This document shows positions 442 through 7,649 of a DNA stretch of 64,000 nt, one piece after another. The translations under genes and the position numbers were made by a program. Each line of letters opens with the position of its first letter. The stretch's first letter is position 1. The notes under the pieces were generated by a model, which saw only the letters and a list, made by a program, of their open reading frames with translations, had not been told where the DNA came from and searched no databases. The stretch lies in NCBI GenBank assembly GCA_012728855.1, contig JAAYEH010000495.1:1-64000 (forward strand), in the 5' to 3' direction. Origin of the DNA: Rhodopirellula sp. (GTDB lineage Bacteria; Planctomycetota; Planctomycetia; Pirellulales; Thermoguttaceae).

Positions 442-2544
442 TCAGATCAATGGCAGGCCCTGCTCTTGCAGGAACGCCGCTGTCGCGTCGAAGGAACGCG
501 GATCACGCGTTGGATCGTTAGGATCACCTTTGGGTATCCAGATCACCATGCCCCGGCGCGCTCGCGTTAGGAGCACGCGATACTTGTTCGCAACGTAAAC
601 TGCCATATTCGGCTGACTGATGCGCTGCCAGCGAGTTCCACGGAACTTCTGAAACCTCCAGCGGCCCGTATCAGGGCAAATCACAAAATCCCCACCCCAG
701 CACACACCCACCCAATCGAGTTCCAGGCCCTGGCATTCAAATTCTGTGGCGGCAACTTCCAGCATCGAGGAAGACCGGCAGTCGTTCATCGCGGCCAGGA
801 ACCATTCGACGAAGGGGTATCCCTTGCGGAAAGCCGAAGACACTTCAAGTCCATGCGCGCGCAGACGTAGGGCGCCTGAACTTGCCAAGAGACCGCACCG
901 CTGCGATCCGTCGGCACGCGACCGCAGCCACTGCCGTGCCGCATCAATATTCCGAGTAAGGACAACAGGGAACTCCCCGGTCAGGATGTCCGACTGCTTG
1001 TCATCCATCCCACTCCGCGTGATGATCGCGTTCACCCATTCGCCGATTCGCCGCGCACGTGGGCTGCGGACGCTCACGTCCAGGTGAAGACAGTCCGATT
1101 CAACAATGGTCAGGTGCCCGCCCGGCTGGTCGTCGAAGAGCCGGTGCCCGGCGACGGATCCACCGCCCCGAAGCGCGTCGGGCGAAGCGAAAACTCGCCA
1201 AGGCGTTTTACGTCCGTTAAGCGCGCGCCCCCACTCGGCGAGGCCAGCCTCGCCCTGGTGGATTTCTTGTCCTCCCCCGACCAGCGCGATCACAGTACAC
1301 CAATCCGGCGCTCGCTCCATGATATCCAAGACCAATTGGGGCTCAGACTTCGACAGGCCATGTTTCTTTTTGACGGCGGCGGCATTCCAAGCGCGCTGCG
1401 CTTCGTCGAACACAATCGCGTGCTCGTACGGCGGATCGCTCGGCCTCTTGACCGCGTAATTTGTCAGAAATCCATGCACGTTGCCGACAAAGGTGGAAAC
1501 GGTGCGTTGCGCCTGATTTCGCGGCATTCCCGACCGTCGCCGGTCGCGAACGAGTGCCTCCCGAATGATCTTGACAAGCGGGCCATTGCCAGAAAGGAAT
1601 ACGGCTGCGGGGCGGTCCTGATTGCGAATGCGCGGATCATGGACCGCGTTCAGGCCGGTCAGGGTCTTTCCAGCACCCGGGATCCCGGTTACAAAACAGA
1701 TGGTGCGGGCCTTCGTGCCTTGCGAGAAGTCGATGGCTTCACGAATTGCTGAGGAAGTAACGTCCAAATTGTGCGCGAACGCGTGCGAAATGTCTGCCAC
1801 ATGATGACCGGAAAACAGACGTTCTGCCGCGTCGATAATGCTGGGGCAGGGGCGGTATGCTGCACTTGCCCAAGCGTCTGCATTGATCGGGGCATCCAGT
1901 GATTTATGAAAATATTGATACGATGAGGTAATGCAGCTCGCGAGGGAGTGCCCTCCGTTCCCACCTGTCCCCTGCAAGGGCACAACGAGGTTAGCAGTCA
2001 TAAGTGTATCCAGGAGGGAGGGTGAGGATTCGCCTGCTGCCTCGGTCGCTACAAGGATGGGCAGAATGGTCCGATCGTGGCTGGCGAGATGAAAATCGCG
2101 GAGGTCCAATGCGTAGCTGACGACTTGCCACTCGTCCTCGCCTGAGTAGTGAGTGGCCCCGACCTTGAACTCAATTACGAAAATGAGATCATCTGCAAGC
2201 AGGATGGCGTCTGGACGTTTCCCTCGCCTTGGTATTTCATACTCAAGCAAGAGCCACCATTTTCGACTAGCGGGCGCAGTTGCTGTCAGCCGGCCGGCCA
2301 ATCGCTGCAATAACTCAAGCTCCCTCTGCCATGCCTCCGTCTGCTTTGTGTGATGCGTGGCGAAGCCTGCGGCCGCAGCCGCTGCAATCAGCGAACCAAG
2401 CTTCTCGCACGCGCTAGTGCTATCGAACTCTTCAAGACGACAACGGTACGCGAAACTCACAACAGCAAACTCCACAGAAATGACTTGGGCAACTGTGACG
2501 AATACCCTTGGGTTCTCACCCGTTATCCACTCGTGACCCCGCAT
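442..2544 (-). CDS. DUF2075 family P-loop ATPase (Schlafen/helicase-like)
   Basis: This is a 700-residue protein with a Walker A motif GIPGAGKT near residue 288 and a Walker B motif IVFDEAQRAW near residue 380. The arrangement matches DUF2075, a P-loop domain related to superfamily 1 helicases and prokaryotic Schlafen-type ATPases. The first ~270 residues resemble the N-terminal nuclease-like region often found in this family (DAILLADDLIFVIEFKVG, an E-x-K pattern typical of PD-(D/E)xK folds). The C-terminal third keeps helicase-like features (FECQGLELDWVGVCWGGDF; NKYRVLLTRARRGMVIWIP). The start at 2544 has no good ribosome binding site. Its neighbours are a helicase and a phosphorothioation-associated protein, so a role in defence is plausible but inferred. 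Confidence 0.8.
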   Translation of the reverse strand: MRGHEWITGENPRVFVTVAQVISVEFAVVSFAYRCRLEEFDSTSACEKLGSLIAAAAAAGFATHHTKQTEAWQRELELLQRLAGRLTATAPASRKWWLLLEYEIPRRGKRPDAILLADDLIFVIEFKVGATHYSGEDEWQVVSYALDLRDFHLASHDRTILPILVATEAAGESSPSLLDTLMTANLVVPLQGTGGNGGHSLASCITSSYQYFHKSLDAPINADAWASAAYRPCPSIIDAAERLFSGHHVADISHAFAHNLDVTSSAIREAIDFSQGTKARTICFVTGIPGAGKTLTGLNAVHDPRIRNQDRPAAVFLSGNGPLVKIIREALVRDRRRSGMPRNQAQRTVSTFVGNVHGFLTNYAVKRPSDPPYEHAIVFDEAQRAWNAAAVKKKHGLSKSEPQLVLDIMERAPDWCTVIALVGGGQEIHQGEAGLAEWGRALNGRKTPWRVFASPDALRGGGSVAGHRLFDDQPGGHLTIVESDCLHLDVSVRSPRARRIGEWVNAIITRSGMDDKQSDILTGEFPVVLTRNIDAARQWLRSRADGSQRCGLLASSGALRLRAHGLEVSSAFRKGYPFVEWFLAAMNDCRSSSMLEVAATEFECQGLELDWVGVCWGGDFVICPDTGRWRFQKFRGTRWQRISQPNMAVYVANKYRVLLTRARRGMVIWIPKGDPNDPTRDPRSFDATAAFLQEQGLPLI

Positions 2545-2996: not shown

Positions 2997-3392
2997 TTAC
3001 GCGAACGGATACTTTCCTCTTCCGGGAATAACATTCCTGACACCGCCTGTCGGATCCGGGAGATCGCCCAAATACCGCGGAATCAGATGGACGTGGACAT
3101 GCAGAATCGTCTGCCCGGCCATCGCTCCAACGTTGACTCCGATGTTATACCCATCCACTCGGAACTCCCAATCCAGCCGGCGGCGCTGTGAAATCAGCAA
3201 GTTCCAAATTGCGGTCACCTCCTCAGCGTCCAATCCGAAGAAGTCCGAGACATGCCGGCGCGCGATGATGAGCGTGTGCCCTGGACTCACCGGATAGCGG
3301 TCCGCAATCGCCACCGCAAGCCGATTCTCCTGCAGAATCCGCTCCGGCGGCAGTCGGCAGAAGGGACATTCAGGATCAGCCGATTCGTTCAT
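2997..3392 (-). CDS. HIT family hydrolase (histidine triad)
   Basis: The protein has 131 residues and carries the histidine triad HVHVHLIPRY near residues 95-104, which binds the phosphate of nucleotide conjugates. The CPFC motif at residues 10-13 is typical of bacterial HIT proteins of the HinT/Ap4A-hydrolase-like group. A longer frame is open upstream, but the start MNESADPECPFC at 3392 fits the family and overlaps the end of the helicase gene by 17 bp, so the two are probably co-transcribed and translationally coupled. The substrate is likely a nucleoside phosphoramidate or dinucleoside polyphosphate. Its place behind a restriction-like helicase is unusual and may be incidental. Confidence 0.9.
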   Translation of the reverse strand: MNESADPECPFCRLPPERILQENRLAVAIADRYPVSPGHTLIIARRHVSDFFGLDAEEVTAIWNLLISQRRRLDWEFRVDGYNIGVNVGAMAGQTILHVHVHLIPRYLGDLPDPTGGVRNVIPGRGKYPFA

Positions 3393-5637
3393 AGTACCTC
3401 GCGATGCTCTCGTTACAGACTTGCCGCAGTTCCTGAAGGTCGTCCGGCCGGAGCTGCCGCCAGAGGTCGGGATGGAAACGGACGTAAGCCAGATCGCGGT
3501 CATACTTCAAGTACTTCCGCCGCTCGAATTTCTCAAACGGCATTCCGAGCATGATCCCCTGCACGTCAGACGGTTCCATGCTTTCGACCCTCGCCATCCG
3601 GTTTCGCAACGACTCCACGGGCAGGCCCTGCTCTCGCCGTGCGTTGTAGAACTGCCGGAAGTTCGCCACGGCATCGGCCAGCTTCGCCCGGCCGCGGTCG
3701 TCCGCCGCGTCGAGGATCGCCAGGAGCAGGACGGGCTTATAAGAAGCCGACATGTCCCTGGCGGCGATATACTTCAGGAAGAGGTCGCGGATATTGTGCT
3801 CGCCGACTTCGGGCAGGTCCAGCGCGGCGCGGACCTCAGGGATCCGATCGCGACTGAAGTAGCAGTAGGTACGGTCGCCCAGCGTAAGCGTGTGGTCGGG
3901 CGCTACCTGGCCGCGTTCGACCGCACGGCGGACCAGCCCCTCCGAGGCCGCCAGCTCGACCTCCAGTTGGGCGACCGTGAGCATGCCCGCGACCGCATCT
4001 TGCCAGTCGAACAGGTCGATCTCGCGGTAGTCCTTCACCCAAAGCCCGATCTCGACGATCGCATTGGGTTTCTCCCCGCGCGCCATCGCTTCCTCCTCGG
4101 CGCGCCGTTGATCCTCCGGTGCCAAGACGAATCCGCCGGGGCGGTACTGAGTCTGGCCGGCGATGCGGTGCAGGCTGAGCGACTGGTTGTAGCGGGTGGC
4201 GTTGTCGACGAAGTCGAAGACCAGCAGCGACTCCTTGCCGGGAGCCTTGCGGGTGCCGCGGCCGAGTTGCTGGAGGTAGACGACCTTGGAGAGCGTCGGC
4301 CGGGCCATGAGGAGGACTTCGACGTCGGGGCAGTCCCAGCCTTCGTTGAGGATGTCGCACGCGCAGAGCACCCGCAGCCGGCCCGCGTGGAAAGCGGCCA
4401 GGTGCTCTTCGCGCTCGCCCTGCGGCATGCGGCCGGAGACGGACTGCGCGGGCACGCCCGCCTCGCGAAGGCGCTCGGCGAGCGATTCGCCGTGCCGTAC
4501 GTTGACACAGAAGACGACCGCCTTGCGGCCGCGGACGTGCTGGAGATACGTGTCGACGATCAGCCGGTCGCGAGGTGGGATGAGGATCTTTTCCTCCAGC
4601 TCGCGGCGGTTGTACTGCACCTGGTTGAAGCGGACGCGGCTCAGGTCGACGTTGGTCTCCACGCGGACGCAGCGGATAGGAACAAGCTCGCCTAGTTCGA
4701 TGGCTTCCCGGAGGCTAAGCCGGTGGGCCGACTCGCGGAAGAGGTCGAGGATCGACTGGCCGTCGGCGCGGTCGGGCGTGGCGGTGAGGCCGAGGACGAA
4801 TTTCGCGCGGAAATAACCCAGTAACGACCGGTAGACCCGCGCGGCGGCGTGGTGCGCCTCGTCGATCACCAGGTAATCGAACTCCGTCGGCAGGAACTCG
4901 CTCAGACGCGCCGAGACGGCCTGCACCGAGCCAACCACGTTGTAGGCATCCGGGTCGCGGGACCCGCCCATGAAGAGACCGACGGAGGCTTCCGGCCACA
5001 GTTCGCCAAAGCGCTGGAAAGCCTGCTGGACCAGCGGACGGGTGTGGGCGAGGAAGAGCGTTCGGCCGCCGAGCCGTTTGGCGTCGGCAATGGCGACGAT
5101 CGTCTTGCCGGTCCCTTGGGCGTGGGTTAAGAGGGCAATCGTCTTGTGGTCCGCCCGCATGGCCGCCAGCACCGCCAGCGCCTCTTCCTGGTGCGGGCGG
5201 AGTTCCAGATCGACCAGTTCGCCAAGCTGCTGCGGCAGGAAGTCGTCGAACGAGAAGAAGCCTGAGATCCGTTCCAGGAACAGCGCCAGCTCTTCCTTCA
5301 CCCGCTCCGGATCCTGTTGGAGTTGCCGATCAGTCCAGCGGAAGATCCGCCAGCCCTGGTGGACGAGGCTATTCTGGCGCAGCAGGTCGTCTTCGAACTT
5401 CTCGACCGAGACTGCCCCGGGCATGTGCCAGGTGAGGCCGTCGATCTCGAAGGCAACTCGCTCCTCCGCGGTCCGCAGGGCATAGTCGATGAACCGTCCG
5501 CCACCGTAGATGTCCTCGGCGGGGTAGTCGTGCGTGAGTTTCTGCACCTGCTCCAAGCCGAAGACCTGGGCGAAGATGTCGACGAAGATGTCCTCCGGGC
5601 CGCTGGAGAAGCCCTGGCGATCGGTGGCGGTGGACAT
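3376..5637 (-). CDS. SF2 DEAH-box helicase with N-terminal DUF559/Vsr-like nuclease domain
   Basis: With the start at 5637 (MSTATDRQGF) the protein has 753 residues; the ~80 residues open upstream are Pro/Ser-rich and not coding. Residues ~10-120 resemble DUF559/Vsr-type nucleases (FIDYAL, then VAFEIDGLTWH, then QGWRIFRWTDRQL). Next comes a superfamily 2 helicase core: AQGTGKT (near residue 175), VIDEAHHAA (near 255), LTATPDRADG, and motif VI QQLGRGTRKAPGK. The last ~140 residues (MSASYKPVLLLAILD onwards) are a separate C-terminal domain seen in restriction-type helicases and HNH-type proteins. The domain order fits a DNA restriction/defence helicase. It is divergent from the phosphorothioation-associated protein and overlaps the HIT gene. 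Confidence 0.85.
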   Translation of the reverse strand: MSTATDRQGFSSGPEDIFVDIFAQVFGLEQVQKLTHDYPAEDIYGGGRFIDYALRTAEERVAFEIDGLTWHMPGAVSVEKFEDDLLRQNSLVHQGWRIFRWTDRQLQQDPERVKEELALFLERISGFFSFDDFLPQQLGELVDLELRPHQEEALAVLAAMRADHKTIALLTHAQGTGKTIVAIADAKRLGGRTLFLAHTRPLVQQAFQRFGELWPEASVGLFMGGSRDPDAYNVVGSVQAVSARLSEFLPTEFDYLVIDEAHHAAARVYRSLLGYFRAKFVLGLTATPDRADGQSILDLFRESAHRLSLREAIELGELVPIRCVRVETNVDLSRVRFNQVQYNRRELEEKILIPPRDRLIVDTYLQHVRGRKAVVFCVNVRHGESLAERLREAGVPAQSVSGRMPQGEREEHLAAFHAGRLRVLCACDILNEGWDCPDVEVLLMARPTLSKVVYLQQLGRGTRKAPGKESLLVFDFVDNATRYNQSLSLHRIAGQTQYRPGGFVLAPEDQRRAEEEAMARGEKPNAIVEIGLWVKDYREIDLFDWQDAVAGMLTVAQLEVELAASEGLVRRAVERGQVAPDHTLTLGDRTYCYFSRDRIPEVRAALDLPEVGEHNIRDLFLKYIAARDMSASYKPVLLLAILDAADDRGRAKLADAVANFRQFYNARREQGLPVESLRNRMARVESMEPSDVQGIMLGMPFEKFERRKYLKYDRDLAYVRFHPDLWRQLRPDDLQELRQVCNESIARYYERIG

Positions 5638-5741
5638 GGGGGAGGGCGACGGGGAATGAAGTGTTGGAGTGTTGGAGTGATGGGGTTCGGACAGGGGCAG
5701 TTTAGCGGCTGGGAGAGGGGGAGGGAAGTGGACGGGCGACG

Positions 5742-6632
5742 GTGGCAGATGCAACACTAGCAGGCACGGTCCCTCGTGCCGTCCGCGGAATTGGTCGGGA
5801 TGAAGCCGACGAATACGCCGACTACGACGCCGTGGCCTCCAAGTTCGGCTCGGCCCGTCGGGCCTTCGCACTGATCCGGCGGGTGACCCGATTACCGCAT
5901 TGGGCCGAGATCCGCGGGCAGCGGGCCAGCGATCTGTTGGTGTACTTCGCGCTGTCCCGGTTTCGCAAGCGTCCGCCGCTCAAGAAGTTGCCGGCGACGC
6001 TGCGGCGCGACATCAAAGAGTTCCTCGGCACCTACAAGCGGGCGTGCGAGCGGGCAGATGCGCTGCTGTTCCGTGCCGGCGAACCCGAAGCGATCGACGA
6101 GGCCTGCCGCCAATCAGCGATCGGCAAGCTCCTGCCCAATGCCCTCTACGTGCATCGGTCGGCCTTGGACCGGCTGGAGCCGATTCTGCGGGTGTACGAG
6201 GGCTGTGCCCGCGCCTATTTGGGCGAGGTGGATGAGGCGAACGTGATCAAGCTGCACCGGTTTTCGGGAAAAGTGTCGTACCTGGTCTATCCGGGTTTCG
6301 ACAGCGAGGCGCATCCGGCGCTGGCGCGGTCGTTGAAGTTGTCGTTGCGAACGCTTCAGCTCGACTGCTACGACTACGCGACCACCAGCAACCCGCCGAT
6401 CCTGCATCGGAAGGAAACGTTCTTGGCGGAGGATTATCCGGGGTACGCGATGTTTGCGGAGTTAACGCGGCAGGAGGAAGAGCGGGGATTATTGAAGGAG
6501 GCGTCGAGAATTGGGACGAGGGCGGGCTGGGAGGAGAGATTGCGCGAGGCGGGGGTGAGGATTGAAGGGCATGAGTTGGTCGAGAGTTCAGAGTTGATCG
6601 TTGAGAGCCGGAGAGAGGGCAGTGGTCGGTAG
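5742..6632 (+). CDS. C-terminal-half homologue of DNA phosphorothioation-associated putative methyltransferase
   Basis: The 296-residue product carries a run of motifs that I recognise from the C-terminal half of the DNA phosphorothioation-associated putative methyltransferase family (TIGR04096): LLVYFALSRFRKRPPLKKLP, IGKLLPNALYVHRSAL, LRVYEGCARA, KVSYLVYPGFD and NPPILHRKE. The SAM-binding N-terminal half normally present is absent. A GTG start at 5742 follows a purine-rich stretch. The last ~20 residues are encoded by short tandem repeats and are probably not functional. The gene is divergent from the DUF559-helicase gene, about 100 bp apart. No dnd sulfur-modification genes are visible. It could be a stand-alone domain protein or a truncated remnant. 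Confidence 0.7.
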   Translation: MADATLAGTVPRAVRGIGRDEADEYADYDAVASKFGSARRAFALIRRVTRLPHWAEIRGQRASDLLVYFALSRFRKRPPLKKLPATLRRDIKEFLGTYKRACERADALLFRAGEPEAIDEACRQSAIGKLLPNALYVHRSALDRLEPILRVYEGCARAYLGEVDEANVIKLHRFSGKVSYLVYPGFDSEAHPALARSLKLSLRTLQLDCYDYATTSNPPILHRKETFLAEDYPGYAMFAELTRQEEERGLLKEASRIGTRAGWEERLREAGVRIEGHELVESSELIVESRREGSGR

Positions 6633-6870: not shown

Positions 6871-7404
6871 GTGACTACATCCATTCCGCCGAACTTTGAG
6901 ACGGTCGCGCCGACTGAGGCCGATGCGCTGCTTGCGCGCGAGTCGAGTCGCCGTCTGGCAGCCCATGACCTCGGTGAGCGAGCCAGTGTCCGCATCCAGT
7001 TGCTGGACGATGGCGAACAGACTGAAACCGTGGCCGTGCCGGCGACGGCATTGCGAGTGTTCCTGCAAGCGCTTACCGAGATGTCGCAGGGCAACGCGGT
7101 CACCCTGATTCCCAGTCACTGCGAACTCTCGACGCAGCAAGCCGCCGACCTGCTCCAGGTCTCGCGGCCCTACGTGGTCAAACTGCTGGACGAAGGGAGA
7201 ATCCCCTTCCGCACCGTGGGCAAGTACCGCCGCGTTCGCTTCGACGACCTGATGGCCTACAAGCGAAAAGACGACGAGGCCAGGGCCAAGGTTCTCGACC
7301 AACTCACCGCCGAAGCCCAGGAACTCGGGATGGGCTATTGCCCGACCCCGACGACCGGCATGTCCTGGCCGCCGCGATTCGCGCCGGTGCCGATACGATC
7401 GTGA
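6871..7404 (+). pseudogene. Excisionase-type HTH antitoxin, C-terminus altered by deletion
   Basis: The GTG at 6871 is preceded by AGGAGG at 6856-6861, which decides this start over the ATG at 6838. Residues ~75-130 contain a MerR/excisionase-like helix-turn-helix (LSTQQAADLLQVSRPYVVKL followed by GRIPFRTVGKYRRVRFDDL) typical of antitoxins paired with PIN toxins. The true family C-terminus seems to be near AQELGMGY. Beyond it the frame continues for about 22 residues out of frame over the PIN-coding remnant, because the normal stop has been lost at a junction near 7337. The antitoxin itself may still fold and autoregulate. Confidence 0.75.
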
Positions 7405-7649
7405 CTTGCAACCTCACTGATTTTCCTGCCGAAACGCTCGCCCGCTTCGATATCCATGCGCAGCATCCAGACGATTTTCTTCTGGGCCTTCTCGATCTGG
7501 ATCCCGGCGTGGTCTGCGCCGCCATCAAACGCCAGAGAGAGAATCTACGCAATCCGCCAAAGACGGCCGCGGAGTTACTTACCACTCTGGAAAACCAGGG
7601 ACTTCCGCAAGCGGTTGCATGCCTCCGCCACGTCGTCGACCAGCTATGA
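7338..7649 (+). pseudogene. C-terminal fragment of PIN-domain (VapC-like) toxin
   Basis: The frame reads PDPDDRHVLAAAIRAGADTIVT then NLTDFP, the second half of a PIN-domain RNase including the conserved D-x-D-D-R-H and N-x-x-DFP elements. The N-terminal half with the first catalytic Asp is missing, and the only possible initiation codon is a TTG. The fragment is joined almost directly to the end of the antitoxin frame, so an internal deletion of roughly half a toxin gene is the simplest explanation. The product should be inactive as an RNase. Confidence 0.8.

Follow-up and report, generated by a model that had tools for sequence, protein, structure and literature searches.

Type 4 BREX and Ssp have been described as related phosphorothioate (PT) systems (PMC12839542). 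In several bacterial phyla, members of the protein family considered here, TIGR04096 (dnd_rel_methyl, the DNA phosphorothioation-associated putative methyltransferase), are found directly beside genes of these systems or of Dnd or Pbe. The papers searched offered little on the family itself: a search with its number returned nothing, and a search with its name returned one passing mention. Among 80 homologous loci, at least 33 had Ssp, Dnd or Pbe genes near the TIGR04096 gene (Ssp in 17, Dnd in 10, Pbe in four and mixtures in two, with thresholds set on the query proteins), a lower bound because many contigs were short and the queries few; the other 47 showed no Ssp, Dnd or Pbe gene. A full-length copy lies immediately downstream of SspA-B-C-D in L038. 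In L026 the full-length gene runs divergently to SspB and SspD, and in L101 to SspB-C-D; PbeA/PbeC lie near the gene in L024, and Dnd genes in L030, L037, L039 and others. These neighbourhoods bear out the general link to phosphorothioation made in the initial annotation of the DNA described below, with partners that are more often Ssp than Dnd. They are more useful than the locus itself, because they offer the accessory methyltransferase, with its duplicated C-terminal domain, as a concrete target for learning what, besides sulfur, these systems may place on DNA.

That domain, a homologue of the end of the TIGR04096 protein, also occurs as a separate gene of 192-202 aa beside full-length copies and, elsewhere, is fused before or after the methyltransferase (separate or fused examples are at L018:17085-17663, L016:3860-4468 and L027:2924-3402). 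The motif IYHHKWL is invariant in the duplicated domain.

In contrast to the full-length genes that adjoin SspABCD, DndABCDE, PbeABCD or BREX type 4, the last of these in the same genome, no such genes were found around the present locus. It lies in the 64 000-nucleotide stretch that was analysed (the window), which is the start of contig C452 in a genome bin of 11.3 Mb and 721 contigs; the bin, which its nearest named relatives suggest to be a planctomycete, is fragmented and has an estimated contamination of 8.9%, and statements about the whole genome are therefore soft. We consider it quite probable that the protein at this locus, P0001, is encoded by a 5′-truncated TIGR04096 accessory gene of a PT system, beside a separate, intact restriction-type helicase-HIT operon. 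The features of the locus are as follows.

442-2544, minus strand: PDC-S41 / SLFN-g3 helicase-domain protein (PADLOC PDLC05014, E 1.8e-218; PF09848)
2997-3392, minus strand: HIT-domain protein (PF01230, E 2e-21), with a 17-base overlap with the end of the helicase gene
3376-5637, minus strand: SF2 (ResIII/RadD-like) helicase with an N-terminal MTES_1575/DUF559 nuclease, motifs intact (profile matches and orthologue alignment)
5742-6632, plus strand: P0001, a TIGR04096 protein reduced to its C-terminal half, in a 296-codon ORF with the homologous part at about 5805-6587
5758-5788, no strand: REP-like palindrome TAGCAGGCACGGTCCCTCGTGCCGTCCGCGG, which marks the truncation junction and encodes residues about 6-16 of P0001
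6838-7404, plus strand: HTH (excisionase-type) antitoxin-like gene of a broken TA pair (TIGR01764, PF12728)
7338-7649, plus strand: C-terminal remnant of a PIN_3 toxin (PIN_3 profile positions 90-113 of 115, sub-threshold)

These genes are best accounted for as a defence island that has a truncated PIN toxin among its members. The broken TA module was correctly recognized in the initial annotation, the antitoxin-like HTH gene being followed by only the end of the toxin; the nearby gene described there as a DUF2075 ATPase is present, and its identity is now SLFN-g3_helicase/PDC-S41. The match to this candidate single-gene defence protein is nearly full-length, and does not imply that the gene at 442-2544 belongs to the helicase-HIT unit. 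The PIN_3 toxin is the second N-terminally truncated gene here, about 1 kb or less from P0001.

P0001 scores 296.8 bits against TIGR04096, above the curated cut-off of 150 (E 2.7e-88), and shares about 50-60% identity with planctomycete members over the C-terminal 260 positions, but the match is limited to profile positions 218-477 of 478 (NCBIfam). Positions 1-217, the SAM-binding half with the FDYGCGHG and NLGY motifs, are absent, as had been annotated. The window contains no methyltransferase half, and the single one that a profile search detected in the genome is at the end of contig C541. What is left of P0001 is otherwise undecayed, with 260 codons free of stops and frameshifts and with 39 of 40 family-wide conserved columns and 64 of 65 close-group columns kept (one altered in each set), so that either the loss happened recently or what remains is still of some use. 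A GTG start is available upstream of the repeat, and the half may therefore be translated. Its AlphaFold2 model is a compact, confident fold (pLDDT 91.5), in which most of residues 1-17 have very low confidence. A PDB sequence search with the C-terminal half gave no meaningful match and a Foldseek search with its model a best E of 1.5; the best VIA hit (Z 5.5) was a weak likeness of residues 51-112 to a TetR-type HTH, below the noise level of about 8.

The first codons of P0001 overlap the repeat TAGCAGGCACGGTCCCTCGTGCCGTCCGCGG. Allowing two mismatches, this sequence was matched at five other places in the genome and at none in a reversed control, and a looser pattern for the palindrome found 12 genome copies, including that of the window, again with none in the control. 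Two aligned copies extend into full hairpins, and paired inverted copies lie on C470 and C564. The window copy differs at two central positions from its five closest relatives and so shares only short exact stretches with them. The GC3 of 5742-5804 is 0.38, compared with 0.82 in 5805-6587, a composition at the start that resembles non-coding DNA. Repeat-coded start, low GC3 and low model confidence together look like the trace expected of a junction at a REP-like element. An ORF at L018:5127-6989, in the relative G016, is one that we take to resemble RAYT, the tyrosine transposase associated with REP-like palindromes.

Homologues on other contigs were retrieved with a four-sequence alignment as the query, P0001 alone having given none; because the query was the C-terminal half, lone methyltransferase halves were invisible to the search. 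Sequence of the methyltransferase half was detected by tblastn in 75 of the 80 homologous loci from other species. One of the other five is cut by a contig end (L102), while four (L025, L034, L042 and L050) are truncated in place, and no second half was found anywhere in their four genomes. Their breakpoints fall at profile positions 153 (with a stop), 189, 258 and 258, compared with 218 for P0001, and the sequences upstream of the truncated copies are unrelated to one another. Two of the other truncated copies lie near the ends of MAG contigs, the copy in L050 is on a complete chromosome, and the similarly cut half in L034 lies near dndC-D-E. Loss of the N-terminal half therefore recurs, at differing points, in four other genomes. 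In the phylum sample, copies above the cut-off and away from contig ends were full-length (from positions 2-4 to 444-477), with P0001 the sole exception. The initial annotation had taken homologues that are always full-length, with a methyltransferase half, as grounds against its reading; this is nearly the case, the four other truncated copies being the exceptions.

The helicase and HIT genes facing P0001, and the Vsr/DUF559-like nuclease at the N-terminus of the helicase, are real, as had been proposed, but the likely start of the helicase is at 5637 (MSTATDRQG) rather than 5871, since the ORF 3376-5871 carries about 78 leading codons that are absent from orthologues. The nuclease domain matched MTES_1575 in all 12 orthologues and DUF559 in 11 of them, with scores around the gathering cut-offs; the domain from the window, taken alone, scored 35.6 bits with MTES_1575 (cut-off 38.2) and 21.8 bits with DUF559 (cut-off 20.6). 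Residues D51, E64-x-D66 and R87 are invariant across the 12 orthologues, the helicase motifs are kept in them, and the nuclease domain is modelled as H-H-E-E-E-H-E-H-H (pLDDT 75). The H-x-H-x-H motif of the HIT protein is intact in an alignment with seven homologues from helicase or TIGR04096 neighbourhoods. The helicase core resembles PADLOC mREase_IV (type IV methyl-directed; E 2.1e-53), PDB 7clg (E 2.3e-47) and RadD (E 3.4e-31; 6jde is also among the PDB relatives), with 7clg and RadD the closest solved relatives by sequence, whereas the N-terminal nuclease and the C-terminal 250 residues are not covered by these matches, which lie mainly in the core. The protein is not a member of RadD, scoring 121 bits, far below the NCBIfam cut-off of 720, nor of TIGR04095, the DNA phosphorothioation system restriction enzyme, which it matches in the helicase motifs (61 bits, cut-off 600).

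The helicase beside P0001 is probably a working restriction helicase. Judging from its family, the helicase-HIT unit would most likely work alone, translocating with the energy of ATP and acting as a nuclease that tells DNAs apart by their modification state. We also considered the idea that the HIT protein could be an aprataxin-like remover of adenylylated DNA arising from DndC/SspD-type chemistry.

Orthologues of the helicase occur near full-length TIGR04096 genes in L018/L036, L027, L059, L075 and L081, all of which were found via TIGR04096; in G016, the full-length TIGR04096 gene has SspD, the helicase and HIT as neighbours. The divergent pair noted in the window does recur, in L059, L075 and L081, but with TIGR04096 full-length in each. 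A sample drawn with the helicase itself added seven further genomes of the class in which no TIGR04096 gene accompanies it on the fetched sequence, part of it short contigs: in one it lies by SspB/SspC (L166), in another by a dndC fragment (L168), in two it is accompanied by HIT, and in five no PT gene was detected near it. The helicase-HIT unit therefore behaves as a separate module, and DUF559-type helicase and HIT protein recur near some of the same PT systems as TIGR04096. The initial suggestion of a restriction system that senses modification through a stand-alone recognition module finds no support in this comparison, because co-occurring TIGR04096 proteins are full-length elsewhere and seven genomes have the helicase without TIGR04096 on the sequence fetched; the lone half and the helicase have no comparative support as a recognition-plus-restriction pair.

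We read the locus chiefly as ordinary gene decay within a defence island, rather than as a new two-part system, because the methyltransferase half is kept in 75 of 80 loci, P0001 begins in a dispersed repeat and the PIN toxin nearby is cut short as well. A deletion or a rearrangement, joined at the REP-like palindrome, would have taken away the class I methyltransferase half, so that the C-terminal half now faces the separate, intact nuclease-helicase and HIT operon. In the full-length protein, the C-terminal half would bind the target or a partner for the methyltransferase; the orphan half would be unable to methylate, and is most likely functionless or no more than a passive binder of DNA or of a protein. 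The initial annotation had offered a decayed dnd locus as an alternative, of which the decay stands, while no PT gene was found with it at the locus. The corresponding variant of our reading, that a complete dnd or ssp locus was once present here and that the helicase was its restriction component, we regard as rather doubtful: the adjacent genes of G016 and the orthologues by SspB/SspC and the dndC fragment speak for such an origin, but neither a PT modification gene nor a piece of one was identified beside the window locus, and the helicase lies near no detected PT gene in most of the class genomes.

The undecayed sequence of P0001, its compact fold with the sub-noise HTH likeness, the retention of this same half in four other genomes and the existence of the homologous domain as a separate gene would also suit a working DNA- or partner-binding module, one that recognizes modified or unmodified targets for the PT machinery or the helicase without methylation. 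We think this unlikely, since the differing breakpoints and unrelated upstream sequences point to repeated loss rather than to a conserved design, the N-terminus of P0001 is coded by a repeat, and the pairing with the helicase is not conserved. It is more improbable still that the half has repeatedly been freed from the methyltransferase to serve PT defence by itself, as a subunit that recognizes DNA or acts as a decoy, paired here with the nuclease-helicase. Finally, the draft assembly might have joined two places at a repeat and so hidden the methyltransferase half, and the number of contigs, the contamination, the position of the junction within a repeat and the two truncated copies near MAG contig ends are all compatible with such an artefact. 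We give this very little weight, because the window repeat shares only short exact stretches with its closest copies, the genome has no spare methyltransferase half other than that on C541, which fits C542, and the same kind of truncation occurs on the complete chromosome of L050.

The statement that no dnd genes are visible holds for the window but not for the genome bin. The end of dndD and a complete dndE lie at a contig edge on C200 (L133:2-801), so that part of a dnd modification locus is present in the bin; DndC was not matched in the bin, so DndC, DndD and DndE were not found there together, and none of the three is at the window locus. Homologues of PbeA and PbeC are on C38 (L132:6944-11332). 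The second TIGR04096 copy of the genome has its N-terminal half at the end of C541 (L016:4552-5088) and continues on C542 (L017:1-1168). Next to it are the BREX type 4 set on C542 and a gene that codes separately for the duplicated C-terminal domain. At the contig break, foreign sequence with palindrome-like ends (TTATGTGTTCGAACACATAA; GCCACATAA) separates GTF from QKYY and so interrupts this copy. At the end of C90 (L134:7467-8501), another HIT gene is accompanied by a short C-terminal remnant of the same helicase. In G001, from the same genus, a short piece of the C-terminal half stands alone near an HNH-like gene (L006:1513-1770), and is again a remnant.
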